Assembly: GCF_029433105.1 (NCBI RefSeq)
Contig: NZ_JARNTW010000016.1
Span: 1 to 64,000 of the forward strand
Direction: 5' to 3'
Source of the DNA: Runella sp. MFBS21
GTDB lineage: Bacteria > Bacteroidota > Bacteroidia > Cytophagales > Spirosomataceae
DNA length: 64,000 nucleotides
The number at the start of each line of letters is the position of its first letter. Position 1 is the stretch's first letter. The notes beneath the pieces are model-generated. The model was not told where the DNA came from. It did not search any database and worked only from the letters and a program-made list of their open reading frames with translations. Made by a program: the position numbers and the translations under genes. Below are positions 7,055 to 25,788 of the stretch, piece after piece.

Positions 7055-8116
7055 TCAGCGAACACCCATCAAAGAAGGCGTACGTACCCCTGGCAATATT
7101 TCACCGCTCACATATACCCAAACCCCCTCCCACTCTACTACGGGAAGCGTCACCCTAGATGGCCATTCTTTTTGCTCCCCCACGTACTCCCAAGTGTCGT
7201 CGGTAGGATGATACACCATGAGGCTTTTGATGATACCTGGATGTTTGGGAGGAGTACGCCATGCGCCCGTCATGCCATCTACCCCACCCCAAAAAAAGAA
7301 CCTTCCGTCTTTGAGTAAAGGTACCGTAGCCCCGCCTGCCGACGCGCCACGAGGCATAGGAGCAAGAGATTCCCAACGCGCTACAGGCTGACCATTTTCG
7401 CGTATCAACTCAAAACGATAAGCATCGGTCAAAATATGACGGTATTTGTGTCCCAAACGATTTAGTCCTGACGTTTCGCCGCTAAATACGTACCCATATT
7501 GTTGGTCTTTACCACACATTGGAAAAATACGAGCTTCTCCAGGAAACAATATTTCTTTCCAACCAGCGGCAGTATCTTTAAGGTCAAGCACCAGACACGT
7601 TTTGAGTGGTGCGGCGGTAGGTGTTTGATTTCCACCTATCAGTATCACCATATCGTTTAGCACTAAACCTCCCATTTGAGCCAAAGGATACGGAAGTGCA
7701 GGTAGGGATTTACGAACCACATCCGTACCATTCCATTCCAGAGCCTCAGCCTGCGTTAGATGCCCGTCTTGGTTACTTCCCCCAAATAGCAGCAATTGGT
7801 TTTGGTACGAAACCGAAGCTCCATATCCACAGGCTGCCGCAAGCTGCGTAGGGAGTCGCTTAGGTGTTCCGCCTTTTTCTAACACAAAAACATCATTGTA
7901 CCAACGCTTTTTGCCTCCTTCCCAAGGCATCTTGTCGGGAAAATTAGCCCCACCAATAGCAATCAAAGCGTTATGGCTTACACCCGCAAACATCCCTGCA
8001 CGCCCTTTGACATCGGGCAAATCGGGAAGTTTTACCCATTCTACCTTAGACTGAGCAAGTACTTCATGAAGAAAATTCATAGTAAAAAACAAAAGAAACA
8101 AAGCGAGTTTTTTCAT
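7055..8116 (-). CDS. Kelch-type mutarotase, NanM-like
   Basis: This 353-residue protein starts with a signal peptide (MKKLALFLLFF to VLAQS) and carries kelch repeats such as IAIGGANFPDKMPWEGGKK and LLFGGSNQDG. The WEGGKKRWYNDVFVLE region is typical of the cyclically permuted mutarotases related to N-acetylneuraminate epimerase NanM, which equilibrates alpha and beta sialic acid anomers in the periplasm. It is the last gene of the operon and lies 6 bp after the SMP-30 gene. Together with the NanA-like lyase and sialidase-like genes upstream it supports a sialic-acid-like or other ketose or uronic acid substrate. The exact substrate is inference. Confidence 0.87.
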   Translation of the reverse strand: MKKLALFLLFFTMNFLHEVLAQSKVEWVKLPDLPDVKGRAGMFAGVSHNALIAIGGANFPDKMPWEGGKKRWYNDVFVLEKGGTPKRLPTQLAAACGYGASVSYQNQLLLFGGSNQDGHLTQAEALEWNGTDVVRKSLPALPYPLAQMGGLVLNDMVILIGGNQTPTAAPLKTCLVLDLKDTAAGWKEILFPGEARIFPMCGKDQQYGYVFSGETSGLNRLGHKYRHILTDAYRFELIRENGQPVARWESLAPMPRGASAGGATVPLLKDGRFFFWGGVDGMTGAWRTPPKHPGIIKSLMVYHPTDDTWEYVGEQKEWPSRVTLPVVEWEGVWVYVSGEILPGVRTPSLMGVR

Positions 8117-8122
8117 ACTAAA

Positions 8123-8959
8123 TCAGAAGGAATGAGAAACAGTAATTACCATCACAGCACCGGGGCCAGGCTCGCCGTAGCCTCCCGTCACAAGCAGTAC
8201 TTGACGCTCAGGCTGATATTCGATAAAACACAAATTACTTGTCAGAGGAAGCTGTGTATCAATACTAAACAACCACTCTCCTTGAGAATTTATAACTTGA
8301 ATAGCCTGCATCCCATAATGTGCCACCCAAAGATTACCTTGGGGGTCGAGGGCAAGGCCGTCGGGTAAATTTTGACTAATCACACCCGACGAATGTGTAG
8401 GCAAGTCAATAAATATCTCTGCCTTGGCTTTCACTATGCCCGGTTCGGCAAGTTCTACCCGCAAGATTCGGTTTTTATAACTCTCTGCTACGTATAAATA
8501 CCGCTCATCGTTTGATAACGCCAACCCATTGGCATATTCTATACCTCGCAGCACCACTTTTTCATCACCATCCGCCCCTTTGAAAAACACTTTACCATCG
8601 ATAAGCAAAGAATCCGTAAAATAGAGGTTATTTTTACTATCAAGAATAAGGTCATTGGGGGTATGGATTTTTTCGCCCGCAATTTGCTCCCTAACGGGCT
8701 CAGGCAGAGGCTTTCCATTGATATCAAAACGCAAAATCCCGCCTTGCTTACTATCACAAAACCAGTGCGAGCCGTCAGCTGCTATGGCCTGTCCATTAGG
8801 ACATACGGCAGTGGCCCATTGTATGGCTTCGCCTTGTTGGTCAACCTTTCCTATCCAGCCACCCGTCAAGGCCGTAAAAAAAAGATGGCCTTCCGAATCG
8901 ACGGCGGGTCCTTCGGTATAAAAAGGAAGATTAAATAATTTTTGGACTGTAATCTGCAT
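8123..8959 (-). CDS. SMP-30/gluconolactonase-like lactonase
   Basis: This 278-residue six-bladed beta-propeller belongs to the SMP-30/gluconolactonase/LRE family of metal-dependent sugar lactonases. Likely metal ligands are Glu in TEGPAV (about 15-20), Asn in TPND (about 96-99), Asn in YANGLALS and Asp in LPDGLALD. No signal peptide is visible, so it should act in the cytosol. It would hydrolyse a sugar lactone made by a dehydrogenase such as the SDR in the same operon. It starts 7 bp after the M81 gene stop and ends 6 bp before the kelch gene. Strictosidine-synthase-like members share this fold, so the reaction is not certain. Confidence 0.88.
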   Translation of the reverse strand: MQITVQKLFNLPFYTEGPAVDSEGHLFFTALTGGWIGKVDQQGEAIQWATAVCPNGQAIAADGSHWFCDSKQGGILRFDINGKPLPEPVREQIAGEKIHTPNDLILDSKNNLYFTDSLLIDGKVFFKGADGDEKVVLRGIEYANGLALSNDERYLYVAESYKNRILRVELAEPGIVKAKAEIFIDLPTHSSGVISQNLPDGLALDPQGNLWVAHYGMQAIQVINSQGEWLFSIDTQLPLTSNLCFIEYQPERQVLLVTGGYGEPGPGAVMVITVSHSF

Positions 8960-8966
8960 GACAAAA

Positions 8967-10439
8967 TCAGCTGAGGTCTTCGAATGGGTATAAGGGCTTG
9001 CGCCGACAATGATACGTAAAAAGGGTCATATCGGCTTGCGTTGCTCCGGGGGTATCCACTTGCACGATTGCAGGGCATACCGACGAATAGGCCGCAATGG
9101 GCGCATTGACGCCTTTGGCAATAATCGCCTCAAATGCAGCAGGTTCTAACCCAAAAGCGGTCATCTGACGTAGGCTATAGGGCGGCGTGCGACGCGCCGT
9201 AAGCATGAGTATATTACCTTGGTCGGTTTCGACGATAGCCGTATTGCCCATATTATAATTGACAAAACCGCCGTGTTTGGGAGTATCTTCTTTAAAAATC
9301 CCGTCTGACAATTGTCTTAAAGTAACATAGACATGCCATCTGCCTTGGGTAGTAGTCAAATCAAGCCCAAATCGCTCTCCCAAACTATGCTGAAAAGCCT
9401 CTTCTACGGCGGTATGATCGGCTAGGCACGTAAATACTTTGGCAAAAGATTTTTTTTCAAAAAACTCAATCAAATGAGTGCTATTGCCCAAAGAGCCCCC
9501 ACCTACATTGTCGCCCATGTCGAGCAGCAAAATGGGTTTGGGCAAATCAGACAATTGTTCATAAACCTCTTCAATGCCCGTTTTTTTTCCGTTGAAAAGA
9601 CTTTTTCGGCTCAATACATAGGCTGTAAGCTGCTCTGCTACTTCTTCTAATTGAGTTTCTTGCGTATCAAGCCCATTAGCGATGAGCAAAAAACTAGAAC
9701 CCATCTCAGGTACGTCTGCGTAAGGAAACCCTAACAACAAACTTGCATGAATCAGGTCATTTTCAGCCGCTTTTGCATTCATAAAAGCCAATAGGCTTTT
9801 GCAAGGGTCGTGCGAAGTATATTGCTGCTCAATACTAATCGCCAAGGGCAATTGTACTAATTTTTGGATAGGTTTTAACTTACCTCTCAGTGTTTCTACC
9901 ATCCAGCGCCCCGCCCGCAACCCCGTTGCGTATTGGTCGATGTGGGGATTAGTACCATATGCAGTGAGGGCGTTGGTAACCTTTGCCATCGCAGGACTCA
10001 CATTGGCATGAGGGTCGAGGGTTCCGATGATAGGCACATCAGTCCCCACTTTCTCACGCAGTTGGCCTAACCAATGCCCATCCATGTCAGGATATTTTTC
10101 CGACACTCCCGCTCCGTGGGGCACTACCACGTAGCCATCGAGGTGGCTCACTTGGGCGAGTGCATTCCACATTTGAGTGAGAATTGCTTCATACGTTTTA
10201 CCCGAAATGATACCTCCGGGAGTAGCCGCTACATATAGTATGGGCACTAGCTCCATATCTTCGGCCTCTGCCACGGCGTCTATTACCCCGCTTATTTCGT
10301 GATGAGCGCCACGGTACTCCGACAAAATCTGCTGTCCTTCAAGCCAATACCCATTTCGAAAATCATCGAGCGTGGTAGGCCGCTCGATGAAAGTGTTGGT
10401 TTCGTGATAAATCCCTAATAGGGCGATTCGCTTTTTCAT
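8967..10439 (-). CDS. M81 family metallopeptidase (MlrC-like)
   Basis: At 490 residues this has the full length of the M81 family, whose reference member MlrC (microcystinase C) cleaves small linear peptides of microcystin. Family hallmarks are the N-terminal GIYHETNTF (10-17), the LDPHANVS segment around residue 160, and LLDMGDNVGGGS around residue 313; His and Asp residues in these are the probable zinc ligands. There is no signal peptide, so it should be cytosolic. The start codon overlaps the RidA stop by 4 nt. In this operon it more likely opens an amide bond in an imported intermediate than degrades a toxin; this is inference. Confidence 0.9.
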   Translation of the reverse strand: MKKRIALLGIYHETNTFIERPTTLDDFRNGYWLEGQQILSEYRGAHHEISGVIDAVAEAEDMELVPILYVAATPGGIISGKTYEAILTQMWNALAQVSHLDGYVVVPHGAGVSEKYPDMDGHWLGQLREKVGTDVPIIGTLDPHANVSPAMAKVTNALTAYGTNPHIDQYATGLRAGRWMVETLRGKLKPIQKLVQLPLAISIEQQYTSHDPCKSLLAFMNAKAAENDLIHASLLLGFPYADVPEMGSSFLLIANGLDTQETQLEEVAEQLTAYVLSRKSLFNGKKTGIEEVYEQLSDLPKPILLLDMGDNVGGGSLGNSTHLIEFFEKKSFAKVFTCLADHTAVEEAFQHSLGERFGLDLTTTQGRWHVYVTLRQLSDGIFKEDTPKHGGFVNYNMGNTAIVETDQGNILMLTARRTPPYSLRQMTAFGLEPAAFEAIIAKGVNAPIAAYSSVCPAIVQVDTPGATQADMTLFTYHCRRKPLYPFEDLS

Positions 10440-10816
10440 AACGCAATGACCGCATCTACCTCAAATTTTAGAATATCTCCCAAACACCCTATGAGAGTAG
10501 TACGAGCAGGAAAGGGCGCACTGAAATACTCGCGATAAATGGCATTGAATTCGGCCAAGTATTCCTGTTTACCCACATAATTTCGTACCTGAACGGCATT
10601 GTCAAGGGTAGTTCCAGCCGCTTCGGCAATGCGTTTTAGATTATCAAATGACCGGCGGCACTCTCCTTCAAAGGTATCAGTGACGATGTTGCCTTTGTCA
10701 TCGACCGAAGCTTGGCCTGAAATATAAAGATAACCGCCAGAAATAATACCCGGCGAAAAAGGCAAATGACTTTGAGGAACGTCGCTTCCTGTGATTGGTT
10801 GTTTTTTGGTGCTCAT
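10436..10816 (-). CDS. RidA family enamine/imine deaminase
   Basis: This 126-residue protein is a full-length RidA (YjgF/YER057c/UK114) member, a trimeric cytosolic enzyme that hydrolyses reactive enamines or imines released by PLP-dependent dehydratases. The SGQ segment near residue 34, the conserved Arg in PARTTL near 104-109 and Glu in FEVDAV near the C-terminus fit the active-site pattern. It overlaps the genes on both sides by 4 nt, so translation is coupled. A threonine-synthase-like PLP enzyme in the same operon is a natural source of the enamine. The divergence from housekeeping RidA suggests a pathway-specific copy. Confidence 0.92.
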   Translation of the reverse strand: MSTKKQPITGSDVPQSHLPFSPGIISGGYLYISGQASVDDKGNIVTDTFEGECRRSFDNLKRIAEAAGTTLDNAVQVRNYVGKQEYLAEFNAIYREYFSAPFPARTTLIGCLGDILKFEVDAVIAL

Positions 10817-11457
10817 AATACTCCGTATTTTAAATAGGCTTCAGTGGCCTTCATTCCATTTTTAATCTCATCTCTGGTAATATTTTCAGCCGAAACTTTG
10901 GCCAAGGCCGCTTTGATCACTTCCTCTTCTATGGCTTTGGGAATCACCACAATCCCGTCTTCATCAGCCATTACAATGTCGCCGGGCGCAAACCGAACGC
11001 CGTCGATTTCTACGGGCACATCTATATCAACTACCCGTTGGCGATTTTGACTATCATAAGGATTGCGAGCCGTCGCAAATACTGGAAACGCCATTTCTCG
11101 CATTTTGGCAATGTCCCGAATCGCTCCGTGAACAATCACCCCTACGCAGCCACTATTGCGAGCTGCCGTAGAAAGCAACTCTCCCCAAATCCCTGAGCGC
11201 TCCGAGCCTCCCGCTGCCGCAATTAGTATATCATCGGGTTGGCAGCTATCAACGGCTTTTAGCTCTAGTTCATAAGGGTTGGAATCGGTATGATACATAT
11301 CGGCCCAAAGCGTAGTTTTACAACGTCCCATGATTTTGTTAATACCCGTATAAGGCGTAAACGCAATCCGCGTAGCCTGATGCGTATAGCCCATTTGGTC
11401 CAATACATCCGAAATAACGGCTACGTACAACTGATTTTTGAGTTCTTCGAAATTCAT
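10813..11457 (-). CDS. RraA-type aldolase
   Basis: This 214-residue protein belongs to the RraA/HMG aldolase family, related to 4-hydroxy-4-methyl-2-oxoglutarate aldolases and oxaloacetate decarboxylases; family members were once misnamed menaquinone methyltransferases. The GGSERSGIWGELLS loop and the HGAIRDI motif (Arg-Asp pair that binds pyruvate and Mg2+) are conserved. It most likely cleaves or decarboxylates a 2-oxo acid in the cytosol. Its stop overlaps the RidA start by 4 nt. A second aldolase-type enzyme (NanA/DHDPS-like) occurs in the same operon, so the pathway may have two C-C cleavages. Confidence 0.9.
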   Translation of the reverse strand: MNFEELKNQLYVAVISDVLDQMGYTHQATRIAFTPYTGINKIMGRCKTTLWADMYHTDSNPYELELKAVDSCQPDDILIAAAGGSERSGIWGELLSTAARNSGCVGVIVHGAIRDIAKMREMAFPVFATARNPYDSQNRQRVVDIDVPVEIDGVRFAPGDIVMADEDGIVVIPKAIEEEVIKAALAKVSAENITRDEIKNGMKATEAYLKYGVL

Positions 11458-11568
11458 GTAAATCTGTTAAGTGGCAAGCCACTGCTAATTGTTAATTATC
11501 ATTTATCCTTTAATAAATCGTAGGTTAATCCCCTTAAAATGACCCGTAAAGAGGGACAACATTTTCAT

Positions 11569-12819
11569 CTAAGCTTCTTTTTCGTCGATAACATGCGCTG
11601 TTAGGTAAAGTCGATATAGGAGAAAAACACAAATCAACAATACGACCGTCGCTCCCCGAAACAGTATGCTCAAATCTAAGTGAGCGTCACGAACAGCCCC
11701 GCCAGCGTAGATACCAATACCGCCGATAATACACGAAAGCATATTGATGATGCCATAACCCGTAGCTCGATAACGGCGATCCACAATCATGCACAAAATA
11801 GGCATCATGTTGGCATCCAAAAAAGTACGCGTAAAAGCATAAATGGTAAAGCCCGCGATCGCCAATCCAAAAACGGAAGTGCTTGCCGCAATGAAAACAG
11901 CAGGCGCCGCAATGGTTAGTCCAATCATAGGAACCAATATCCTTCCTTTAGGATTCTGACGACTGAAGCGGTCGGCCAAATAGCCTCCTACTAGCACCCC
12001 AAACAAAGAAGCGGGGTGAAAATAGGCAGTGGCGTACATACCTGCTACACTTTGGGTAAGTCCAAAATGCTCTTGATAATAGGTCGGAAGCCAACCCACA
12101 ATCATCCACGTGACAACTCCTGCTATTCCCCAAAAGGTCAACGCTAGCCAATAGCCTCGGTTACTAAACAAAACACTAATGGCGTCTTTGAGCCCAATAG
12201 CAGAGGTAGTTTCAGAAATCGCGTTTTCGACTGTAGTGTCTTCTTTGCGGTCTTTGAGCGAAAAAGTGAGCAGTATCGCGTACACAATTCCGATGATGCC
12301 AAAAACCAAAAAGACGTAATTCCAAGTACGGTCTTCGGCAAGCCAACCACCAACAAACCCCAAACTTTGGCCAATCATGATACCACTCATGTGGATACCC
12401 GTAGCCAAGGAGCGACTACTCCCTCGGTGATAATCACTGATTAATGCCAAGGCCGCCGGGATGTAGCAGGCTTCGCTGATACCCATCAAAGCGCGCGTTA
12501 AGAGCAATTCTTCGAAAGTCGATACGTAGGCGGTCATCCACGTGACCAACGACCACACAAACAAACTCCCGATGATGACGCGACTACGATTGAAGCGGTC
12601 GGCGAGATAACCCGCTAAGGGACTTAGCAAGCCGTACACCCAAAGAAACAACGAAGTCAGCAAGCCAAATTGGGATTCGCTCATGGGAATAGAACTCATG
12701 ATAGACCCCCTCATGGTGGTAATCATCATTCGATCGAGGTAATTGAGACAGCCTACTACACAAAGCAAGCCCACAATTACCCAAGGATATACAGAGGAAA
12801 GAAAAGATACTTTTTTCAT
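11569..12819 (-). CDS. MFS transporter
   Basis: This 416-residue inner-membrane protein has about 12 hydrophobic helices and the major facilitator signature after TM2 (GYLADRFNRSRVIIG, about residues 71-85), repeated in the second half (GGYLADRFSRQNPKGR). The N-terminal NYLDRMMI segment resembles anion:cation symporter-type (ACS) MFS carriers for sugar acids. In the operon it is the only inner-membrane transporter, so it should carry the periplasmic product across the inner membrane, driven by a proton or sodium gradient. About 110 bp separate it from the RraA gene downstream; it begins 17 bp after the PLP-enzyme stop. Confidence 0.9.
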   Translation of the reverse strand: MKKVSFLSSVYPWVIVGLLCVVGCLNYLDRMMITTMRGSIMSSIPMSESQFGLLTSLFLWVYGLLSPLAGYLADRFNRSRVIIGSLFVWSLVTWMTAYVSTFEELLLTRALMGISEACYIPAALALISDYHRGSSRSLATGIHMSGIMIGQSLGFVGGWLAEDRTWNYVFLVFGIIGIVYAILLTFSLKDRKEDTTVENAISETTSAIGLKDAISVLFSNRGYWLALTFWGIAGVVTWMIVGWLPTYYQEHFGLTQSVAGMYATAYFHPASLFGVLVGGYLADRFSRQNPKGRILVPMIGLTIAAPAVFIAASTSVFGLAIAGFTIYAFTRTFLDANMMPILCMIVDRRYRATGYGIINMLSCIIGGIGIYAGGAVRDAHLDLSILFRGATVVLLICVFLLYRLYLTAHVIDEKEA

Positions 12820-12836
12820 AATGATGTAATAAGGTA

Positions 12837-13919
12837 TTACTCAAAATGTTGTTGAATAGCCGCAACACAATCAGCAACACCCATAGTGGATATGGCCGGA
12901 AGGCCGAAATTTCGTTCTACTGCACTCATGTCTTTGAAACCACTACCCGTCACAGGGCAAACAACCACGTCGGTGGGAGCGATTTCGCCCAATCGAAGCG
13001 CTTTGACAACTCCCGCCAAAGCCACTGCTCCCGCAGGTTCGCCAAAAACCCCTTCTGTTTGAGCCAATTGGCGATGCCATTCAAATACCTCAGCATCACT
13101 AACAGTATAGCCATTACCGCCTAGTTGTCGGCAGTTTTCGATTACTTGGTCTCCATCAATGACATTGGCTACTTGCAAGCCACTCACAAGGGTTGTAGAG
13201 TATCCGACAGGCGTAGCCTTATCACGTCCCTGACGTAAGGCCGACGCAATCGTGTCATTGCCTTCGGGCTGTACACAATGTACGCGGGTGGCAAGTCCTG
13301 CCGACAACACACCTCGGGTAATAGCGAGCGTCAAGCCCCCACCTCCTGCGGGCGAGAAGATATGTGTCGGAGCAGCGGGAAGTTGTTCGGCAATTTCATA
13401 AACCAACGTCTGTACGCCTTGCATAGCCGCCGGGCAATAACGAAACGCGCTAATAGGAAGCGGTAAATCAGATTTTTGACAAATAATAGCCAATTCAGCA
13501 AAGACTTGCTCCGTGACTGACGCACTTTTTCCAAAATCTTTAACCATCAATATCTCAGCACCATAGAGTTGCATTTGTTTGATTTTGGGCAAGGGAGCGC
13601 CGTCAACCACCACCACAATACACACAATCCCCGCCGCCGCACAATAAGCAGCCAAGGCAGCGCCTGTATTTCCGCTTGAAGTAGCAATACATACTTTTTG
13701 ACCTGCCGCCTGCATTTGACTGACTAGTACTGCCGCAAAACGGTCTTTGTAAGAGCCTGTTGGGTTGAGGTTTTCGGTTTTAAAATACAAGGCTTCAAGA
13801 CCTAGTTGCTTGCCAATGTACTTAGATTTCACCAACGGGGTTTGTCCTTCACCCAAAAACACGCGATGCGCTTCGGGGATAGCGGGTAAGTACGCGGCAT
13901 AATTCCAGATGGTTTTCAA
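12837..13919 (-). CDS. Threonine-synthase-like PLP enzyme
   Basis: This 360-residue fold-type II PLP enzyme has the lysine that binds PLP in NPTGSYKDR (K58) and the phosphate loop SSGNTGAA (81-88), plus a GGGGLT motif. The closest families are threonine synthase and threonine/diaminopropionate dehydratase-type enzymes. Gene context favours a beta-elimination or replacement step on an amino acid intermediate rather than threonine biosynthesis, because RidA, which clears enamines from such reactions, is in the same operon. Its start overlaps the SDR stop by 4 nt. The reaction is inferred; homoserine phosphate use cannot be excluded. Confidence 0.85.
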   Translation of the reverse strand: MKTIWNYAAYLPAIPEAHRVFLGEGQTPLVKSKYIGKQLGLEALYFKTENLNPTGSYKDRFAAVLVSQMQAAGQKVCIATSSGNTGAALAAYCAAAGIVCIVVVVDGAPLPKIKQMQLYGAEILMVKDFGKSASVTEQVFAELAIICQKSDLPLPISAFRYCPAAMQGVQTLVYEIAEQLPAAPTHIFSPAGGGGLTLAITRGVLSAGLATRVHCVQPEGNDTIASALRQGRDKATPVGYSTTLVSGLQVANVIDGDQVIENCRQLGGNGYTVSDAEVFEWHRQLAQTEGVFGEPAGAVALAGVVKALRLGEIAPTDVVVCPVTGSGFKDMSAVERNFGLPAISTMGVADCVAAIQQHFE

Positions 13920-15644: not shown

Positions 15645-15658
15645 CACAGAAAACAATA

Positions 15659-16780: not shown

Positions 16781-16803
16781 GGGTTTAGGAATACTTAAAA
16801 GAG

Positions 16804-17922: not shown

Positions 17923-17932
17923 AGGCATTTTA

Positions 17933-19093
17933 TTAATAAAAATCAGCTTCATTCAATGAAATACGCAGGTCACCTTGCATGGTAGTCACCCAAAGTTTGC
18001 CGGGTTTTATCTCAAAAATATAAGGGTACGCAATCCACGCTTTCGAAGTATCACTGTTTTGGATTTTGTATGACTTCGCAATCACTCTCGGTTTACTCCA
18101 TGTTTTGCCATCATCATCTGAGAAAGCGATAGATAGCTCTTCGCGGTGATTGCTCGCCGCTATTTCCGAAAACTGCCCATCGCCTCCACGAAGGGGATAA
18201 GTATTTTTTCCTTCGGGAAAACGTCGATTCCAAATCAAAACGAGTTTGCCAGACGCCAGGCGTTTGAGCTGTCCAGGAGCCGAAGCCGCCGGAATAGCCG
18301 TAGGACGGATGGTTTTCCACGTAATGCCTTCATCGTCAGAAAAACATTCCCAAAAAGTGCCCCAATTGGTACGCATCAATTGCCAAATCTGCCCGTCTTT
18401 GAGCTGCTCGATAGTCGATTCTGTCACCCCACTATGGTGACCAATACCTCCCAAATCAATGACGTTTGAGCGTTCCCAATTTTCGCCATCGTCGCGCGAG
18501 GTGTAAGTCAATACCGTATGATGACCGGGATTGTGGCGCATCATCATCGACGTAAAAATGACATTTCCGATTTGGGTTTCAATCATGCTCCGAATCGCGC
18601 CCGTATGCTCGGTATGAAGTCGCCTCAAGTTTTGCCAAGTACGGCCACCGTCAAGGCTACGAATCGCATAAGTAGGCAAAATAGCCCCCGGCGAATCGGA
18701 GGTTTTGGGGTCCCATTTCCATTCCGAACGCTCCGCCAGATTGAGAAAAGCAAAAATAATAACGCCGCTACGGGTCGTAATCATCGCCCTTTCTCCCGAA
18801 ACGTTGAATTTTTCGGGTTGGGCAAAAAGTGGGAATGACTCCCACGTTTTGCCTTCATCTTTGCTGATTTTGCTATTTTGACCATCAATAGCCACGATAT
18901 GCCCTTGTTTGTTTCTTACAAACGGCCCCATCAATTGCCCCTTCAGTTCTTCCACATTTTTGGGAATCCACGCATCTGAGGCTGTTATTTTTCCGTTTTG
19001 TTCATTAAAAACAGGAACGCTTTCTTGTGCTTGCGTAAGGGTAGCCGAAAGTAGCAAGCCACCCATCAAACCTACGATAGTTCTTTTTTTCAT
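17933..19093 (-). CDS. Sialidase-like BNR protein 3
   Basis: This 386-residue exported protein starts with a signal peptide (MKKRTIVGLMGGLLLS to TQAQES) and has Asp boxes SKDEGKTWES, SLDGGRTWQN, SRDDGENWER, SDDEGITWKT and SDDDGKTWSK. It belongs to the sialidase superfamily but is clearly more distant from the two downstream paralogues, with no NPRNSEG segment. A GHHSGVTESTIEQL segment and NWGTFWE lie in the middle and could form the active site. I start at the ATG at 19093; upstream in-frame codons overlap the aldolase gene. It starts 16 bp after the aldolase stop. The substrate is unknown. Confidence 0.82.
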   Translation of the reverse strand: MKKRTIVGLMGGLLLSATLTQAQESVPVFNEQNGKITASDAWIPKNVEELKGQLMGPFVRNKQGHIVAIDGQNSKISKDEGKTWESFPLFAQPEKFNVSGERAMITTRSGVIIFAFLNLAERSEWKWDPKTSDSPGAILPTYAIRSLDGGRTWQNLRRLHTEHTGAIRSMIETQIGNVIFTSMMMRHNPGHHTVLTYTSRDDGENWERSNVIDLGGIGHHSGVTESTIEQLKDGQIWQLMRTNWGTFWECFSDDEGITWKTIRPTAIPAASAPGQLKRLASGKLVLIWNRRFPEGKNTYPLRGGDGQFSEIAASNHREELSIAFSDDDGKTWSKPRVIAKSYKIQNSDTSKAWIAYPYIFEIKPGKLWVTTMQGDLRISLNEADFY

Positions 19094-19109
19094 TCTCCTT
19101 TGTCGTGAT

Positions 19110-20024
19110 TTATTTACTAATCGTCCCAACGGTCAATGCCATTTTTTCCAAAATTTCGAGCACGGGTTCGTCCTCCCACGGTTGGTTGTGCATACCCAAC
19201 GGCGGATTGGGCATACCGATACGAATACCATGTTTGAGTTGCATTGCTTTGTCAAAAAACGACCACGCATTCGGCAAAACAGTATGGATGATTTCTTGTA
19301 AAGTGAGCATGAATCGTTGTCCCAATTCATAATTACCGGCTATGAAAGCATTGCGTACATAGCGGCATTCTTCACCCCATAGATTGTAAAAACTACCGAT
19401 AGCTCCCACTGTTCCACTCAAAGTAGCTTGACAAAACAACTCATCTGCTCCGCTAAAAAGAATCAAATCATCGCCTGCCAAGATATGCATTAGACTGATT
19501 TCGTAGAGGTTTTGGGTGGTCAGTTTCATACCCTCAATATTGGGCAGGGTGAGCAGTTTGTCAATATAAGCGCGAGCGTCGCCCGCAAAAATGCTTTGAT
19601 TTCCTACATGGTAAGGGAAAAAGGGGATATTGATCGAAGAACTAATGGCGCGGTAATGAGCGAGGGCATTTTCGGTACCTCCTTGATAATAGATAGGTGC
19701 TACCGAAGATATTCCGTACACGCCAGCTTTTTCGGCGGCTTGCGCCAGACGTATCGACTCCCGGGTATTCAGTGCACCTACTTGAGTCATCACAGGGATT
19801 TTGTTGCCAACGATTTCCATTACTTTTTGGGTAACTTCAATTCTTTGTTTTTCGCTAAACAACACCCCTTGCCCCGTCGAGCCGAGCACATAGATACCGT
19901 CGAGCTGCTGGTCAAGACACAATTGAGTAATTTTTTCTAACTCCGCAAAATGAGGTGCGCCTTCTTGGTCAACTGGGGTAAACAAAGCAGGCCACAGCCC
20001 TCCGATGGATGATTTATTATACAT
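19110..20024 (-). CDS. N-acetylneuraminate lyase/DHDPS family aldolase
   Basis: This 304-residue TIM-barrel class I aldolase belongs to the DHDPS/NanA family. The substrate loop GSTGQG (48-53; GSTGE in NanA), the catalytic Tyr138 in FFPYHVG and the Schiff-base Lys167 in GMKLTT are all present. Known reactions are cleavage of N-acetylneuraminate to N-acetylmannosamine and pyruvate, or of other 2-keto-3-deoxy sugar acids. It is cytosolic and begins 166 bp after SusD, beyond a large inverted repeat. NanM-like and sialidase-like partners make a sialic-acid-type substrate plausible, but the downstream NanE/NanK enzymes are missing here, so another keto acid is possible. Confidence 0.87.
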   Translation of the reverse strand: MYNKSSIGGLWPALFTPVDQEGAPHFAELEKITQLCLDQQLDGIYVLGSTGQGVLFSEKQRIEVTQKVMEIVGNKIPVMTQVGALNTRESIRLAQAAEKAGVYGISSVAPIYYQGGTENALAHYRAISSSINIPFFPYHVGNQSIFAGDARAYIDKLLTLPNIEGMKLTTQNLYEISLMHILAGDDLILFSGADELFCQATLSGTVGAIGSFYNLWGEECRYVRNAFIAGNYELGQRFMLTLQEIIHTVLPNAWSFFDKAMQLKHGIRIGMPNPPLGMHNQPWEDEPVLEILEKMALTVGTISK

Positions 20025-20190: not shown

Positions 20191-21663
20191 TTAATAGCCA
20201 GGATTCTGTTTGACTTTGTTTTCCAAGCTAAGGGTATTGGCTGAAATCGGGAACAACAACAAGTAATCTTTACCAGCGCGACTTTGGAGCGAAGGTACTT
20301 TTTCAAAAGCTTTGCCAAAACGCACAAGGTCCCACCAGCGCTTCCCTTCTAAGCCCAACTCTAGCAAGCGTTCTTTGAGAATAACCTCATCATTCTGGGC
20401 TTGCGTACCATTTACAAAACCATGAGTAGCAATATTTTTACCGTAAGCCCTTGTTCTGACTTGCATAATTTCGGCCGTGGGGTCTTGTCCTAAGGCATTT
20501 TTGATTTCAGCAATCATCAACAAAATATCGGCATAACGATAAATGACATAATCGTCCAAATAATAACGGGTACCTAGCTCTACCATCCCGTCAAATTTGA
20601 CGGCAAATGAAGCATAGAATCGGCGAGTACCGCTTGTAGAGGTGTATATTTCGCGAAAAGTCCCATTTTTACGTTGGTCATCATCCGTAAATTGACTGCG
20701 AAAGGTCTGTGAAGGTGCCCAGAAATTTTGCCCGCCAGCCACTCCCAAGGCCGCCGATATTTCGCTGCTTATATCAACAGGTATAGAAGGTGCCCCAAAG
20801 TGCATATTTAGATAATCGTTGTTGGTAAATTCATTACGACGAAAATTGACGGCAAACACAATCTCTTTGTTGCCTTTATTGGCATAATCAAACACACTGC
20901 TATAATCATCCAACAAAGTCACATCGGAAGTCTTAACTTGGTTGAGAGCCTCCAAAGCCTTTGTCAAATCGGCATTGCCACCGCCTAGTTTTTTGGCCGT
21001 CCAAAGATATACGTCTCCTTTGAGGGCGTTGAGAGCGGGCTTGCTCCAGATATTACGCCCTGTCGGGAAAGTATTGTCAGGAAAAAGTGCTATACCTTTA
21101 TCAATGTCGTCTTTGATAAGTTTGAAAACATCTGCTACAGAAGAACGCTCTTTTTGGATAGATGCAGGGTCAAATTGAACGGTAGGCTCGGTCACAATCG
21201 GTAGCTCCCCCCAAGTTCTGACCATAGAAAAATACACAAAAGCCCGCATAGCATAAGCTTGCGCCAAAATCTTGTTTTTAGCGGCTTCCGATGTGAAGCT
21301 GATGTTAGGTACATTTTTCAAAACGAGGTTGGCGTGGTGAACAATGGTATACATCCCCTGCCAATCTGGACCCGAAGTAGTGGCATCCAACTGATTGAGA
21401 TAAAACGGATCACGCCCGTCTAGGCCCTGAATCCCAGAACCCATCGTCTCTCCACGGGCTTCTCCCCACAAAAACATATTACGACTCGCTTGCGTACGAA
21501 GATACACATACATGCCATATACCCCGCCGTTGGCATCGTCTTGGGTTTTCCAGAAAGATTCGTTACTGATGACACTCGTCGGCGTCACATTTAGGTTTTC
21601 GGTACAAGAGGCAAATAGAAGGCTCAAAAGTACCAATTTCAAAAATATGGATTTCGATTTCAT
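20191..21663 (-). CDS. SusD/RagB family surface lipoprotein
   Basis: This 490-residue protein is a SusD-type outer-membrane lipoprotein that binds glycans at the cell surface and caps the SusC channel. It begins MKSKSIFLKLVLLSLLFASC, a lipoprotein signal with Cys20, followed by the TENLNVTPT stretch usual for SusD. TPR-like helical regions span the N-terminal half, and the C-terminal region contains the family-typical RYYLDDYVIYRYADILLMIAE and RWWDLVRFG segments. It starts 15 bp after the susC stop. The carbohydrate specificity cannot be read from the sequence. Confidence 0.95.
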   Translation of the reverse strand: MKSKSIFLKLVLLSLLFASCTENLNVTPTSVISNESFWKTQDDANGGVYGMYVYLRTQASRNMFLWGEARGETMGSGIQGLDGRDPFYLNQLDATTSGPDWQGMYTIVHHANLVLKNVPNISFTSEAAKNKILAQAYAMRAFVYFSMVRTWGELPIVTEPTVQFDPASIQKERSSVADVFKLIKDDIDKGIALFPDNTFPTGRNIWSKPALNALKGDVYLWTAKKLGGGNADLTKALEALNQVKTSDVTLLDDYSSVFDYANKGNKEIVFAVNFRRNEFTNNDYLNMHFGAPSIPVDISSEISAALGVAGGQNFWAPSQTFRSQFTDDDQRKNGTFREIYTSTSGTRRFYASFAVKFDGMVELGTRYYLDDYVIYRYADILLMIAEIKNALGQDPTAEIMQVRTRAYGKNIATHGFVNGTQAQNDEVILKERLLELGLEGKRWWDLVRFGKAFEKVPSLQSRAGKDYLLLFPISANTLSLENKVKQNPGY

Positions 21664-21678
21664 GATAATTCGGAAGGG

Positions 21679-24600
21679 TTAAAGCGAAACATTTAAACCA
21701 AACATGAATGTTCTAGGAACAGGATAGCGTCCACGGTCGGTGCCTCCTTCTTCAGGATTCAGCCCTTTGTATTTTGTAAAATACCCTAGATTTTGGGCAG
21801 TTAGATTGAGTCTTACACCATCTATTTTCAAGCGACTTGTGTATTTTTTTGGTACACTATATGTAAGTGAAACCTCTCTTAAGCATAGAAAATCGCCTGA
21901 TTCGTAGTATCTCGAATTACTACCATTGGCAGAGGTAGCATTACGGAAAAGGTTGTTTTGCCCCAACTGATCGGCCCAGTAGTACTTGGGAACTTCGGTG
22001 ATATCACCCGGTTTTTTCCATGACGAAAGTGCCTCTTTTGAGATATTAATATCTCCTTGAAACTGCCCAATCATCTGTGCACGAGGATAGTTGAAAATCG
22101 TATGACCCGTGGTATAATCGGCACGTACATACAATCCTAAACCACGGTAACTAAGAGAGTTTGAAATACCGCCTGTCAAAGTTGGGAAAGGGTTGCCTAC
22201 ATAAACGCGGTCGCGGGCATCGATAGAGCCATTGCCGTCGGCATCAAGCCAAATCACATCTCCACCGTATTTGGTACGATTTGCTCTCGAAATTAGATAA
22301 TCAATTGGTGCACTCGCGGCTGCTTCGTCGGTAGCATAAATTCCGAGTTGTTTATAGGAAAACATATCTCCTACCCGACCGCCTTCTTGCAATCCGCCAT
22401 AATATACGTAAGATTGAGTCTGAGGATCCCAAATTTCGATACCACCAATACGGTTGTTGATATTACCATTGGTAGGTAGTTTAAGAATTTTCATTTTGGT
22501 TTTGGCCGCATTGAGCGATACTACCCATTCCAAAGGCGAAGTTGAAGGTAGTACGTTGGCCCGAAGTTCTACCTCTATCCCTTTGTTTTCAAGACTTCCT
22601 AAATTGGTACGAACGCTCGAAAAACCCGTCGAAAGTGGTAAGCTCAAATCGGTTAAGAGATTGTCAGTCACACGGCGATAAACATCCACTAGCATATTGA
22701 TTCGGCCATTCCATACAGCGATGTCAGTACCAATATTGACTGTTTTAGAACGTTCCCATTTCAAACTTGAATTGGCCAATACGGTATTAGTAATCGCGGC
22801 ATTGGTGTTATACAAATTCCCCACACTGTACTGTCCTTGTGATTGAAAATCAGTGAGTCCCGCAATGTTACCGTTTACACCGTAGCTTGCTCTCAACTTA
22901 ACCCGTAGCATATCTTCACTGATTCCTTTCCAAAAATTTTCTTTATGAAGATTCCAGCCCACAGATACTCCCGGAAAAAAGCCCCATTGATGCGTTTTTC
23001 CCAAGTTAGAAGCACCGTCGTAGCGGGCATTGAGCGAAACAAGGTATTTTTCCATGTAGTCATAATTGATACGTGAAAAATACCCTACTAATACTTGGCG
23101 GCTTTCAAAACCTGTCACCGACACAGGCGTAGCAGAAGCATTGAGCGTAGGAATCAAATCCGAAGAAGCCCCCTGCCCGACGGCTCCTAGCCCAGTAGTA
23201 TCTCTTTGGAAATAAGAAATACCCACCTTCGCATCAAGATTGTGCGCTTGGCCGATGCTTTTGATATAAGACAATACTCCGTCAGCTTGGTATTGCGTCC
23301 GTTTGCCAAACGACCCCGTGGCCGTACGTGTGGAAACAAACGAGGTAGGGCCATTTAGGAATCCTTGCTGAAACGAACGGCCATCTCCCGTAGTTTCATA
23401 AATAGAAAGCTGTGGGTCAAAAGATAGCCCTGGTAAAATCTGCCAATGACTACCTATCGCCATCGAAAGATTGGCGAAAGCGTTTTTCCCTTTTAGTTTA
23501 TTCAGAAAATATTCTGGGTTACCAATCGACTGTGCCAAACCAGGAGCCAATGTACCGTCTTCAAAACGATACTTGGTGGTTTGAGGAATGTCGATAGAGC
23601 GCTCAAAAATGCTGTTGTTTGAAAATACTTGGTTGTTTCCTGAGCGCGAGTACATCATACGCGCATAAAACTTCAGGTGGTCGTTGACCATCAAATCTCC
23701 ATTCAAGTCAAAATTGAGACGCTGGTACATGGTCGTAATGGCGATGCCTTGTGCATTCATGTAGCCAATACCTGCATTGAAGGTAGCTTTCTCACTTCCA
23801 CCCGACAATGAAACGTGGTGGTTGTGGGAAAGCGCATTCTGAAACAATACTTTCTGAAAATCAGTCTCCTGAAAAATAATCGTTTTGGTAGGATCTACGG
23901 GGTCGGGCATACTCTGCCAGCCTTCATTGAGTTTTTGTCTATTTTGATCGGTCAAATATTGGGTAGTATAAGGTGTCAAATTGGTCAAATCGTTACCCGT
24001 TCCGTATCCCGTTTTTCCAGCCAACTGAGTCAAATAAGTCGAATTGCCCGACACCGCTACTGTAGCCAATATTCCTTGACGTTGGTAATCAATATAATCT
24101 CGCGCCGAAGCAAGGTCATAACCCTTGGCCAATTGCGACATCGACAGATTATACTGATAATTGACTCTCAGCTTACCACTTTTACCTGATTTGGTAGTTA
24201 CAATCACTACCCCGTTAGAAGCCCGCGCTCCATAGATAGCCGTCGAAGCAGCATCTTTTAGAACCTGAATAGATTCGATTTCTTCAGAGCTGATATCGCT
24301 CAAATCTGGACGAACTACACCATCTATAATATACAGAGGTGCTGCTCCATTGGGATTAATGATAGAAGTACCACCCCGCAATACCACCCGTGGTGCTGCG
24401 CCGGGCTGTCCCGAAACCGTCTGTACGCGTACCCCTGCAATCGACCCTTGCAACGACGATGCCGCGTTTTGATAAGGCACGTTTTCTAATACCTTATTAT
24501 CAAGACGCGATACGGCCGTCGTTATTTTGTCGCGCGATTGGGTTCCGTATCCCACCACAAGCACTTCATTGAGTGTCTGCAAATCTTGATTTAATGAAAC

Positions 24601-24912
24601 ATTGATTTCGGTTTGGGTACCCACCATCACTTCCTGTGATTTGTAACCCACAAAACTAAAAACCAAGGTTTGCCCACTTTGCACCGCAATGGTGTATTTG
24701 CCATTAGCGTCGGTATTTACTCCGAGCTGAGTGCCTTTGACCACCACCGTCACAAAAGGCATAGGAGCGGAATCTTCGGCTGACCGCACCACACCGCCGA
24801 TTTTTTGCTGTGCAAATAAGACTGTAAAACTGGCGCAACATAGGGCAACCAAAAATAATACTCTCCAAGGCGACTTTAGCTTCTTTTTCATCCTGATAAA
24901 GTTTTGATTCAT
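21679..24912 (-). CDS. SusC/RagA family TonB-dependent transporter
   Basis: This 1077-residue outer-membrane protein starts with a signal peptide (to VLFAQQK). A carboxypeptidase-D-regulatory-like domain follows (about 35-110), then the TonB plug with the SusC signature (STAIYGARASNGVVIVTTKSG, about 222-244), and a 22-strand beta-barrel ending in a C-terminal aromatic-type strand (TFMFGLNVSL). It imports the oligosaccharide delivered by SusD, using TonB energy. It is the first gene of the operon. A methionine at residue 8 (24891) is an alternative start. A promoter with palindromes lies just upstream. Confidence 0.96.
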   Translation of the reverse strand: MNQNFIRMKKKLKSPWRVLFLVALCCASFTVLFAQQKIGGVVRSAEDSAPMPFVTVVVKGTQLGVNTDANGKYTIAVQSGQTLVFSFVGYKSQEVMVGTQTEINVSLNQDLQTLNEVLVVGYGTQSRDKITTAVSRLDNKVLENVPYQNAASSLQGSIAGVRVQTVSGQPGAAPRVVLRGGTSIINPNGAAPLYIIDGVVRPDLSDISSEEIESIQVLKDAASTAIYGARASNGVVIVTTKSGKSGKLRVNYQYNLSMSQLAKGYDLASARDYIDYQRQGILATVAVSGNSTYLTQLAGKTGYGTGNDLTNLTPYTTQYLTDQNRQKLNEGWQSMPDPVDPTKTIIFQETDFQKVLFQNALSHNHHVSLSGGSEKATFNAGIGYMNAQGIAITTMYQRLNFDLNGDLMVNDHLKFYARMMYSRSGNNQVFSNNSIFERSIDIPQTTKYRFEDGTLAPGLAQSIGNPEYFLNKLKGKNAFANLSMAIGSHWQILPGLSFDPQLSIYETTGDGRSFQQGFLNGPTSFVSTRTATGSFGKRTQYQADGVLSYIKSIGQAHNLDAKVGISYFQRDTTGLGAVGQGASSDLIPTLNASATPVSVTGFESRQVLVGYFSRINYDYMEKYLVSLNARYDGASNLGKTHQWGFFPGVSVGWNLHKENFWKGISEDMLRVKLRASYGVNGNIAGLTDFQSQGQYSVGNLYNTNAAITNTVLANSSLKWERSKTVNIGTDIAVWNGRINMLVDVYRRVTDNLLTDLSLPLSTGFSSVRTNLGSLENKGIEVELRANVLPSTSPLEWVVSLNAAKTKMKILKLPTNGNINNRIGGIEIWDPQTQSYVYYGGLQEGGRVGDMFSYKQLGIYATDEAAASAPIDYLISRANRTKYGGDVIWLDADGNGSIDARDRVYVGNPFPTLTGGISNSLSYRGLGLYVRADYTTGHTIFNYPRAQMIGQFQGDINISKEALSSWKKPGDITEVPKYYWADQLGQNNLFRNATSANGSNSRYYESGDFLCLREVSLTYSVPKKYTSRLKIDGVRLNLTAQNLGYFTKYKGLNPEEGGTDRGRYPVPRTFMFGLNVSL

Positions 24913-24964: not shown

Positions 24965-24979
24965 ATTTGTAGGACAAAT
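24965..24979. promoter_or_regulatory. FadR/GntR-type operator candidate
   Basis: ATTTGT-AGG-ACAAAT is a perfect palindrome carrying the GTnnnAC core known for FadR-subfamily GntR operators. It overlaps the -7 box and start of transcription of susC. The divergent gene at 25093 encodes a FadR-type regulator, a natural partner. Confidence 0.6.
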
Positions 24980-25003
24980 ATAATGATAGGATTTAACTAT
25001 CAA
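24975..25003 (-). promoter_or_regulatory. susC promoter, Bacteroidota type
   Basis: On the minus strand TATATTTG (24975-24982) matches the TAnnTTTG -7 box, and TTG lies at 25001-25003 with an 18-bp spacer. The start of transcription would be near 24968, about 55 bp before the susC ATG. Confidence 0.6.
24984..25002. promoter_or_regulatory. Second palindrome in the susC promoter spacer
   Basis: TGATAG (24984-24989) and CTATCA (24997-25002) form an inverted repeat with a 7-nt spacer that fills the gap between the -33 and -7 boxes. It could bind a repressor, but it lacks the GTnnnAC core of the neighbouring palindrome. Confidence 0.35.
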
Positions 25004-25092
25004 CATAATTGTAGAAAAAAAAATATAATTATCTGCTACTTTTCTTGTTTAAGTACTAACTTGCACGACCATTGTACAGGGATAGAAAATAT

Positions 25093-25788
25093 ATGACTAC
25101 AAACAAACTAGATACTCTAGAGCCTCTTGGGAGTCTGTCGATGACCGACCGCGTCGAAAACAGTCTTCGATTGTATTTTACCGAAAGTGGGTTTAAGCCA
25201 GGAGATTCCTTGCCCAATGAGCAAGAGATGGCTCAGAAACTGAATGTGAGCCGAAATGTGGTACGAGAAGCACTTAGTAGATTAAGAATGTTGGGCATGA
25301 TTGAAGCACGTCCACGCCGTGGCATGGTAATCGCCCAGCCCGATTTGCTAGTGGGCTTAGAAAAAGTAATGAATCCGTCGCTTTTAAGTCAAGACAATCT
25401 CAAAGATGTATTTGAACTTCGGCTCATCTTAGAAATGGGAATCGCCGAATTTCTTTTTGCTCGTAAAACCGAACAAGATTTAAACGAATTAGAAGCGATT
25501 GTAGCAAGTCAAAACGACGCGACGGTTGTTTCGAAAGAAGAAGAGATTGCCTTTCATGGAAAGCTATACGAAATGACTGGCAATGATACCTTCAAAAGAT
25601 TTCAAACGCTTTTAATGCCGACTTTCGACCACGTGTTTACGGGTTATTATAACCAAAGTAAAAAGATAGAAATCCCTAATCCCGTAACGCACTACGATTT
25701 ATTCAAGATTTTGAAAACGGGTACTGTCGAAGAGTTCCGAAAAGCAATGTACACACATTTAGCAGTGTATTTTGCTTCTATATTATAA
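25093..25788 (+). CDS. FadR-type GntR family regulator
   Basis: This 231-residue regulator has an N-terminal winged helix-turn-helix of GntR type (about 15-80, LPNEQEMAQKLNVSRNVVREALSRLRMLGMIEARPRRG) and a C-terminal all-helical FCD ligand-binding domain (about 95-225) with the usual EMG...LEAIV and His-bearing helices (FHGKLYEMTGN, MYTHLAVYF). FadR-type members sense organic or sugar acids and mostly act as repressors. It is divergent from the susC operon and probably controls it through the palindromes in the shared region. I start at the ATG at 25093; a TTG seven codons upstream is less likely. Confidence 0.92.
   Translation: MTTNKLDTLEPLGSLSMTDRVENSLRLYFTESGFKPGDSLPNEQEMAQKLNVSRNVVREALSRLRMLGMIEARPRRGMVIAQPDLLVGLEKVMNPSLLSQDNLKDVFELRLILEMGIAEFLFARKTEQDLNELEAIVASQNDATVVSKEEEIAFHGKLYEMTGNDTFKRFQTLLMPTFDHVFTGYYNQSKKIEIPNPVTHYDLFKILKTGTVEEFRKAMYTHLAVYFASIL

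Follow-up and report, generated by a model that had tools for sequence, protein, structure and literature searches.

A SusCD locus of Runella with a proposed oxidative, kinase-free back end for sialic-acid use

To our knowledge, bacterial sialic-acid routes all rely on an epimerase and a kinase, which turn ManNAc into GlcNAc or GlcNAc phosphate. A SusCD locus of Runella sp. MFBS21 raises the question of which sugar is used, and how, where sialidase-like proteins and a NanA-type lyase are encoded beside candidate oxidation, deacylation and deamination enzymes. We analyzed a window of 64,000 nucleotides (contig NZ_JARNTW010000016.1, positions 1 to 64,000), in which a first-pass annotation had described a SusCD run with a divergent FadR-type regulator. 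Coordinates, strands and families all match that description by open reading frames, Pfam and NCBIfam: the run comprises 15 - strand genes that begin with SusC (21679-24912) and end with a NanM-like kelch protein (7055-8116), and the divergent regulator brings the count to 16. Pfam backs the family assignment of 16/16 proteins and NCBIfam that of 10/16, with no protein passing an NCBIfam cut-off among the matches listed (best 25 families for three proteins). Within the run, neighboring genes are separated by -20 to +23 bp, with the exceptions of SusD/NanA (166 bp) and MFS/RraA (111 bp). The features are as follows.

25072..25788, + strand: GntR/FadR-type (FCD) regulator, divergent (Pfam GntR 4.4e-15, FCD 1.6e-13)
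24965..24979, no strand: palindrome ATTTGTAGGACAAAT, putative operator of the FadR-type regulator (motif comparison)
21679..24912, - strand: SusC-type TonB-dependent outer-membrane importer (Pfam)
20191..21663, - strand: SusD-type glycan-binding lipoprotein (Pfam)
19110..20024, - strand: NanA, N-acetylneuraminate-lyase-type aldolase (PDB matches; nine active-site positions kept)
17933..19129, - strand: BNR1, exported propeller related to GH181/GH33 sialidases (PDB, fold, residues)
16804..17952, - strand: BNR2, exported GH33-like sialidase candidate (Pfam BNR_2 1.8e-38)
15659..16780, - strand: BNR3, exported GH33-like sialidase candidate (PDB exo-sialidases, AF2 fold)
14715..15656, - strand: AstE/DoeB-type deacylase, candidate N-acetylmannosaminate deacetylase (Pfam PF24827)
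13916..14734, - strand: SDR dehydrogenase, candidate ManNAc 1-dehydrogenase (NCBIfam, below cut-off; motif residues)
12837..13919, - strand: fold-type II PLP enzyme, threonine-synthase-like, candidate D-mannosaminate ammonia-lyase (Pfam, NCBIfam)
11569..12819, - strand: MFS carrier, candidate inner-membrane sialate importer (Pfam, NCBIfam)
10813..11457, - strand: RraA-like protein, candidate KDG aldolase (Pfam, NCBIfam; the family includes class II pyruvate aldolases)
10436..10816, - strand: RidA-family protein (Pfam, NCBIfam)
8967..10439, - strand: M81/MlrC-type metallohydrolase (PDB 3iuu and MlrC 7ylq)
8123..8959, - strand: SMP-30/gluconolactonase-type lactonase (Pfam; residues E16, N102, N144, D200)
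7055..8116, - strand: NanM-like kelch mutarotase, signal-like N-terminus (Pfam NANM 8.1e-28; TIGR03548 4.2e-33, below cut-off)

The closest PDB structures to the window's NanA are N-acetylneuraminate lyases. S47, T48, Y137, K165, T167 and G189, together with the NAL-type residues D191, E192 and S/T208, are kept in 41/41 cluster lyases compared, a set that includes the window's own and in which L090 and L132 are one gene. E192 of the lyase bonds O8/O9 of Neu5Ac, according to PMC3014015. The DHDPS family of this lyase also includes KDG aldolases; positions 192 and 208 are D192/A208 in YagE/YjhH and A192/V208 in E. coli DapA, unlike the cluster lyases, and a KDG aldolase was not preferred given NAL-type residues at both. 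Against the NCBIfam NAL model the window's NanA scores 160 bits, below the cut-off of 281, and is outscored (191 bits) by the lyase of a second locus on contig 36 of the same genome, ordered SusCD-BNR-BNR-NanA-kelch. Lyases of this second type also keep E192 and S/T208 (8/8 compared), so the signature marks NAL-type lyases generally; the contig 36 locus may serve ordinary sialic acid, and the window locus may serve another.

The BNR proteins look like sialidases, both by sequence and by predicted fold. The top PDB matches of BNR1 are AmGH181 (9eob, 8axs, 8axi, 8hls), and its predicted fold matches mostly sialidases at a TM of about 0.5-0.6; the AF2 model of BNR3 (pLDDT 86) matches mostly sialidases at about 0.7. 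E237, R253, R329, Y368 and Q385 of BNR1 are invariant in 12 sequences, and BNR2 and BNR3 have a common invariant R/E/Y set (R44, E223, R239, R302 and Y333, in 21 sequences), with roles assigned by alignment only in both cases, and for residues other than the acid/base Asp. By crude hydropathy, the BNR proteins and the kelch protein have hydrophobic, signal-like N-termini, which are absent in M81, AstE and the PLP enzyme. The earlier proposal is supported in that an acylated acidic sugar would be imported, trimmed outside the cytosol (in line with the N-termini of the BNR and kelch proteins), deacylated, oxidized and cleaved by one conserved unit. A mutarotase and an inner-membrane carrier are also in place, the kelch protein scoring above the Pfam NANM cut-off and an MFS carrier being present. 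In several relatives GDSL esterases, of which the window has none, adjoin or are fused to BNR proteins, which fits the expectation for O-acetylated sialic acid.

Pfam finds no NanE, AGE epimerase or ManNAc/GlcNAc kinase among the 16 locus proteins, and across 111 related core-type stretches NanE, AGE epimerase and YhcH are found in none, while NanK matches in two. The NanE model has no match in the window's own genome, on which ground a plain canonical nan locus was rejected; five members of the AGE epimerase family are encoded in other parts of that genome. Family-wide, the NanE model has matches at E<=0.001 in 140/222 genomes, 18 of them above cut-off; these matches are partial and reach 29.6 bits at best, and we read them collectively as unrelated proteins. 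A like front end (BNR, GDSL, SusCD, NanA, kelch, MFS) is joined to an AGE epimerase in L219. Among the eight second-type stretches AGE occurs only there, and NanE or NanK in none, which leaves a single locus as the basis for comparison with a standard back end. The missing NanE and NanK had previously been taken to argue against plain Neu5Ac catabolism; we read the absence as a sign that the kinase/epimerase back end was probably replaced, more than as an argument against sialic acid. NAL-type lyase residues and sialidase-like folds suggest that the acidic acylated sugar of the first-pass annotation is sialic acid itself.

We propose that the locus is under FadR control and allows growth on sialic acid, either Neu5Ac or a closely related sugar, with an oxidative, kinase-free back end in place of the phosphorylating nan back end, a reading we regard as reasonably probable. 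Its basis is gene content, conserved residues, two predicted BNR folds, co-inheritance and a shared operator, and we infer all substrates, products and the order of steps. Exported candidate sialidases BNR1-3 would free sialic acid from glycans, SusCD and the MFS carrier would bring it in, with the kelch protein supplying the correct anomer, and NanA would split Neu5Ac into pyruvate and ManNAc. The SDR would oxidize ManNAc at C1 to a lactone, SMP-30 would convert this to N-acetyl-D-mannosaminate, and the AstE/DoeB-type enzyme would release mannosaminate and acetate. The fold-II PLP enzyme and RidA, which we propose to place at the conversion of a 2-amino-aldonate to a 2-keto-3-deoxy-aldonate, would remove ammonia from mannosaminate to give KDG (2-keto-3-deoxy-gluconate), from which RraA would yield a second pyruvate and D-glyceraldehyde. 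The sequence of events is probably to cleave, oxidize, open the lactone, deacylate, deaminate and cleave again. A point against this route is that M81 has no step in it. A fuller version, which we advance tentatively and at slightly short of an even chance, holds that a complete kinase-free route runs from Neu5Ac via N-acetyl-D-mannosaminate and KDG and yields two molecules of pyruvate along with glyceraldehyde, acetate and ammonia, that AstE-SDR-PLP-M81 is a portable module found behind other front ends in Planctomycetota, Verrucomicrobiota and Chloroflexota, and that RidA and M81 as a pair perform an undescribed step.

The residues compared in the back-end enzymes are kept throughout: H29, E32, H113 and E177 of AstE (26/26), Y156 and K160 of the SDR (23/23), Lys58 of the PLP enzyme's SYKDR motif (22/22), R105 of RidA (21/21), H12, E13, D142, H144 and H166 of M81 (20/20), E16, N102, N144 and D200 of SMP-30 (23/23), and R114-D115 of RraA (23/23), which we take to be the R-D pair of the RraA/HMG-aldolase active-site motif. 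The PDB relatives of AstE include N-acetyl-L-2,4-diaminobutyrate deacetylase, the closest NCBIfam match of the SDR is a glucose 1-dehydrogenase subfamily (below cut-off), and the PLP enzyme is similar to threonine synthase and to dehydratases. Mannosaminate has the L configuration at C2, which fits the L-type relatives of AstE and the PLP enzyme; glucosaminate is D-configured. AstE and SDR adjoin in 56/59 loci holding both, SDR and PLP enzyme in 51/53, and RidA and M81 in 42/44. M81 is unsupported as an obligatory enzyme, being missing from L069 and L077, where the rest of the core is present, and from L209. Elsewhere, an HpcH/HpaI aldolase directly before AstE (L159) could replace the aldolase, and a PF10282 lactonase (L145) the lactonase.

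The gene set co-occurs beyond chance. Within the window's family the deacylase (E<=1e-30) is found in 25/222 genomes, spread over 7/36 genera, and this lyase type (E<=1e-40) in the same 25, a count of lyases with at least 51% identity to the window's and not of every NAL-like protein. The NAL model, matched by 209/222 family genomes at E<=1e-33 and by none above cut-off, was set aside as uninformative for counting all sialate lyases of the family. AstE, SDR, PLP enzyme, RraA, RidA, SMP-30 and kelch occur together in 22/26 relatives; of the remaining four, one set is cut by a contig end, two are the parts of a set that is split, and one is an orphan deacylase. A broader sample, the 80 loci nearest by deacylase, overlaps the family set and is related by descent; 54 of these are Bacteroidota, 45 of which have SDR and PLP enzyme. 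These 45 loci hold RidA (44), NanA (43), M81 (42), SMP-30 (42), BNR (39), kelch (38), MFS (32) and RraA (23), leaving 22 lacking RraA and six lacking BNR. Random co-occurrence, which the first-pass annotation had named as fatal to its reading, does not describe the 25/25 shared genomes and these Bacteroidota counts. Eleven non-Bacteroidota loci with the PLP enzyme contain this NanA, SMP-30 and kelch in 0/11 and BNR in 2/11, so the back end also exists without a sialic-acid front end. Deacylase homologs across the order (57/148 genomes) were treated as background, the best besides the window's own reaching E 3.7e-26 at 31% identity.

We propose ATTTGTNNNACAAAT, on the pattern of its occurrence in related sequences, as the operator of the FadR-type regulator. 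It is exact in 13/14 FadR/SusC gaps, window included, with one mismatch in L070, and has 4 sites in the 7.9 Mb genome vs 0 for a reversed-pattern control. Exact sites occur in 12/24 deacylase-nearest loci with a FadR match (Runella, Spirosoma, Dyadobacter, Siphonobacter); among these 24, none was found outside the window's family. Dyadobacter frigoris carries the set divided among four sites, all of which have FadR and ATTTGTNNNACAAAT: SusCD-NanA-AstE lies in L071 and L074, and BNR-SDR-PLP-MFS-RraA-RidA-M81-SMP30-kelch in L235 and L236. The main cluster of D. bucti (L209) lacks AstE, which stands with FadR and the operator in an orphan locus (L076); no operator was found on the 20 kb stretch of L209, which ends inside SusD. 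Most regulator orthologs align from about residue 7-8 or later, so the real start of the regulator is probably the ATG at 25093.

The same chemistry might act on another nonulosonic acid, either Neu5Gc or one that is di-N-acylated (legionaminic/pseudaminic type), with AstE and M81 each removing a different acyl group in the latter. Two metallohydrolases of amide-cutting families, with M81 in 42/45 Bacteroidota loci, and the other sialidase-lyase locus already in the genome are consistent with this; however, L069 and L077 lack M81 yet have the rest of the core, retention of the C8/C9-diol-binding E192 in 41/41 cluster lyases disfavors 9-deoxy acids (not Neu5Gc), and the 4-amino group of a di-N-acylated acid would presumably block the last aldol step. 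We judge such a substrate unlikely. It seems quite unlikely that the lyase is instead a KDG aldolase and that GlcNAc or GalNAc from another glycan is oxidized to an aldonic acid in the style of chitin oxidation, as the ong pathway does for GlcNAc (PMC9537276). KDG aldolases do belong to the DHDPS family, and the back end lacks NanA in 11 non-Bacteroidota loci, but residues 192 and 208 are NAL-type and not KDG-aldolase-type, the predicted BNR folds are sialidase-like, and the enzymes known for D-configured glucosaminate belong to the D-amino-acid type, which the enzymes of this locus do not.

Sialoglycopeptide breakdown, in which sialidases and lyase use the sugar and the released peptide, serine or threonine falls to M81, AstE, the PLP enzyme and RidA, would accord with the peptide and acyl-amino-acid hydrolases among the M81 and AstE families and with the PLP enzyme's likeness to threonine synthase and dehydratases. 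It gives no role to the SDR, SMP-30 or RraA, despite the adjacency of AstE-SDR (56/59) and SDR-PLP (51/53), and signal-like N-termini are absent in M81, AstE and the PLP enzyme; we hold it very unlikely. Gene order may be common to related genomes by descent, yet the set is patchy (7/36 genera) and split loci retain the same regulator and operator, and we give scarcely any credence to adjoining genes with unrelated jobs co-inherited by chance.

Read as an oxidative route for sialic acid, the locus shares with canonical nan (E. coli nanATEK) its candidate sialidases, import across the outer membrane, a NanM-like mutarotase, an MFS carrier and NanA, and differs in having an oxidation-deacylation-deamination module in place of epimerase and kinase. 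Ectoine and hydroxyectoine degradation uses DoeB and EutB, and the closest named relatives here include both a deacetylase of DoeB type and a PLP dehydratase of fold II; unlike that route, the locus has candidate sialidases, NanA, SMP-30, kelch and SusCD, and none of its 16 proteins is of the M24 ectoine-hydrolase type. In the ong pathway of Pseudoalteromonas prydzensis, a GlcNAc-derived 2-acetamido-aldonate loses its acetyl group and then its amino group to give KDG, and a RidA-family protein is essential (PMC9537276). That logic would be shared, and RidA is found in 44/45 Bacteroidota SDR+PLP loci; by family, however, the locus has no OngB or fold-III OngC. Where ong has the D-aminoacylase OngB, the fold-III PLP enzyme OngC, a kinase acting on KDG and a carrier of the SSS type (PMC9537276), the locus has an AstE/DoeB-type enzyme, a fold-II PLP enzyme and no kinase, and its aldonate would arise within the cell via SDR and lactonase. 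Sulfo-Entner-Doudoroff and other sugar-oxidation routes (PMC12133307) share the proposed SDR 1-dehydrogenase, lactonase, 2-keto-3-deoxy acid and aldolase, and use a sugar-acid dehydratase where this locus would have a deacetylase and PLP ammonia-lyase/RidA.

In the open-access papers searched, we recognized no description of mannosaminate catabolism or of ManNAc oxidation in sialic-acid use. The proposal is testable in cultivated, named strains, including Runella zeae and a number of species of Dyadobacter and Larkinella. We know of few substrates for the M81 metallohydrolase family; if the proposal is true, that family would be tied to a defined pathway and mannosaminate would gain a metabolic place. 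It would also add a second, oxidative way of using sialic acid, a common animal sugar, and this way would escape searches for NanE and NanK, so that genome-based prediction of sialic-acid use would change.

These data indicate that the locus is inherited as a single gene set. Open reading frames and family searches confirmed the gene run described by the first-pass annotation: fifteen minus-strand genes from SusC to the NanM-like kelch protein, with a divergent GntR/FCD regulator. The conserved co-occurrence it had proposed as a check was also found, the core genes standing together in 22 of the 26 stretches fetched around orthologues of the deacylase AstE (25 within the window's family and one from its class). 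Their order is AstE-SDR-PLP-(NanA)-(MFS)-RraA-RidA-(M81)-SMP30-kelch, where bracketed genes are missing or elsewhere in some stretches. The remaining four comprise a set cut by a contig end (L073), two D. frigoris copies (L071, L074) and, from D. bucti, an orphan FadR-AstE pair (L076). The rest of the split D. frigoris set lies at two other places (L235, L236), both of which also have a FadR gene; the main D. bucti cluster, on a different contig, lacks AstE (L209). The gene set is thus one unit.

The deacylase (E<=1e-30) and this NanA type (E<=1e-40) each occur in 25 of 222 family genomes, with identical genome lists; across the phylum sample, the deacylase was found in 2 of 395 genomes, the window's own counted. 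A contig search yielded 391 relatives, of which the best 80 were retained and assigned phylum labels by us; genes were counted at score thresholds that we set, and many of these loci are short. Among these best 80 of 391, 54 belong to the Bacteroidota; SDR and PLP are present in 45 of the 54, together with RidA (44), NanA (43), M81 (42), SMP-30 (42), BNR (39), kelch (38), SusD (34), MFS (32), SusC (31), RraA (23) and FadR (20). The PLP enzyme was present in 11 of the 26 non-Bacteroidota loci in the same best 80, accompanied by M81 (11), SDR (8), RraA (6), RidA (2) and BNR (2), and by NanA, SMP-30 or kelch in none of the 11. In Spirosoma telluris (L109/L084), the lyase, BNR1, SDR, PLP, M81 and kelch genes appear to be split into at least two pieces in the assembly, reflecting either decay or assembly error.

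The window corresponds to contig 8 of its genome, which totals 7.88 Mb. Because the block at 7055-20024 is GC-richer (46.7%) than its flanks (38.1% left, 41.0% right) and the deacylase occurs in 2 of 13 genus genomes of the family set, we infer that the locus resembles a unit that is mobile or has been retained patchily; the deacylase of a congeneric genome, G692, is 93% identical. Two tandem tRNA-Val (tac) genes lie beyond the locus (27651-27726 and 27792-27867), a possible insertion neighbourhood for this block.

A candidate operator was located beside the regulator:
Window 24965-24979: palindrome ATTTGTNNNACAAAT, between FadR and SusC, proposed operator.
It is exact in 13 of 14 FadR/SusC gaps, the window's included, and also occurs in both L235 and L236 and upstream of the orphan AstE (L076). 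It was not found on L212, L213 or L219, stretches around other sialidase-lyase loci, nor on L209, which ends before the regulator end. The whole genome holds four sites, one being that of the FadR/SusC gap; the window holds one exact and one one-mismatch site, with 0.56 expected at up to one mismatch.

The front end makes this very probably a sialic-acid locus. BNR3 matches solved exo-sialidases in sequence, and its predicted structure (pLDDT 86) fits sialidase folds best, the exceptions among the 50 listed being 5hx0 (an uncharacterised Dyadobacter protein) and 4j9t (a designed protein). The best sequence match of BNR1 is AmGH181 (PMC10067855, PMC12018670); by alignment and spacing, BNR1 retains the equivalents of the AmGH181 residues E218, R234, R305 and Q367, and has Tyr at the position of Gln350 in GH181. 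Its fold match is weaker than that of BNR3 (pLDDT 79, TM 0.5-0.6). Nine N-acetylneuraminate lyase (NAL) positions are retained in all 41 cluster lyases. GDSL esterases adjoin BNR proteins, or form fusions with them, in L072, L069, L090, L209 and L123; none lies beside those of the window.

No epimerase or kinase for the ManNAc left by NanA was found in the locus. With AGE from L219 and NanE, YhcH and NanK from E. coli as queries, AGE, NanE and YhcH gave no hit in 111 stretches of overlapping genomes (L065-L170, L209-L211, L235, L236), and NanK matched in two; the E. coli queries all recovered their own genes. L219 has the same front end but with an AGE epimerase. The contrast between such AGE-bearing loci and the 111 core stretches is thin, because among eight stretches with a second-type lyase AGE occurs only in L219, the source of the query.

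The locus instead holds an SDR, a lactonase, a deacylase related to N-acetyl-L-2,4-diaminobutyrate deacetylase, a fold-II PLP enzyme closest to threonine synthase, RidA and an RraA-type protein. By sequence comparison these retain the expected residues, which we take to be catalytic. In the proposed route, the SDR would convert ManNAc to a lactone, the lactonase would yield N-acetylmannosaminate, the deacylase would release mannosaminate, the PLP enzyme with RidA would form 2-keto-3-deoxy-gluconate (KDG), and RraA would split KDG into pyruvate and glyceraldehyde. In substance, we consider this oxidative route reasonably probable. Among NCBIfam families listed, no locus protein reaches cut-off, and RraA is absent from 22 of the 45 Bacteroidota loci with SDR and PLP (best 80 of 391). 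At C2, glucosaminic acid is D and mannosaminic acid L; the L-type relatives of the back-end enzymes thus speak for mannosaminate as the substrate. N-acetyl-D-mannosamine dehydrogenase is one of the SDR sugar dehydrogenases named in PMC12133307. In the oxidative chitin-utilisation (ong) pathway, GlcNAc-acid is deacetylated then deaminated to KDG, and a RidA-family protein of unknown role, OngD, is essential (PMC9537276). The relatives of OngB and OngC are D-amino-acid enzymes, whereas the window's deacylase and PLP enzyme have L-type relatives.

The last steps of the route may vary, because downstream of the core some relatives, whether or not they have RraA, carry an aldo/keto reductase and a gluconate-5-dehydrogenase-like SDR; neither was seen at the window locus:
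L114:9382-11138: both families identified.
L117:15451-17171: both families identified.
L085:214-1152: one of the two.
L069:908-1699: one of the two.
In L159 an HpcH/HpaI aldolase precedes AstE and may stand in for RraA, as may a PF10282 lactonase in L145 for SMP-30, although such proteins are common. A class-III aminotransferase gene lies in or adjoins the cluster at L117:18270-19565 and L160:16086-17384.

M81, to which the proposed route gives no step, retains its presumed metal ligands and adjoins RidA in 42 of the 44 loci holding both. Verrucomicrobiota and Planctomycetota clusters (L144, L145, L147, L149, L151, L152, L164) read AstE-(SDR)-PLP-M81 without NanA, with RraA in six of seven; L144 has an M24 peptidase gene within the run, and sulfatases and an SSF carrier close by. 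In a planctomycete (L143:12056-17638), a GFO/IDH/MocA oxidoreductase, a GDSL esterase and a weak FadR match stand beside PLP-SDR and RidA-M81-AstE; its DHDPS-family protein lacks the NAL residues.

A second SusC-SusD-BNR-BNR-NanA-kelch locus was observed on contig 36 of the same genome (2547-12417; L212) and in R. zeae (L213), a member of Spirosomataceae, Bacteroidota, where it includes a BNR_assoc_N neuraminidase-type protein. The lyase of this second locus has Asn at position 48, and that of contig 36 outscores the window's with the NAL model. The genome thus carries two sialidase-lyase loci, of which that on contig 36 may process the commoner sialic acid through the standard pathway, with the window locus taking another one.
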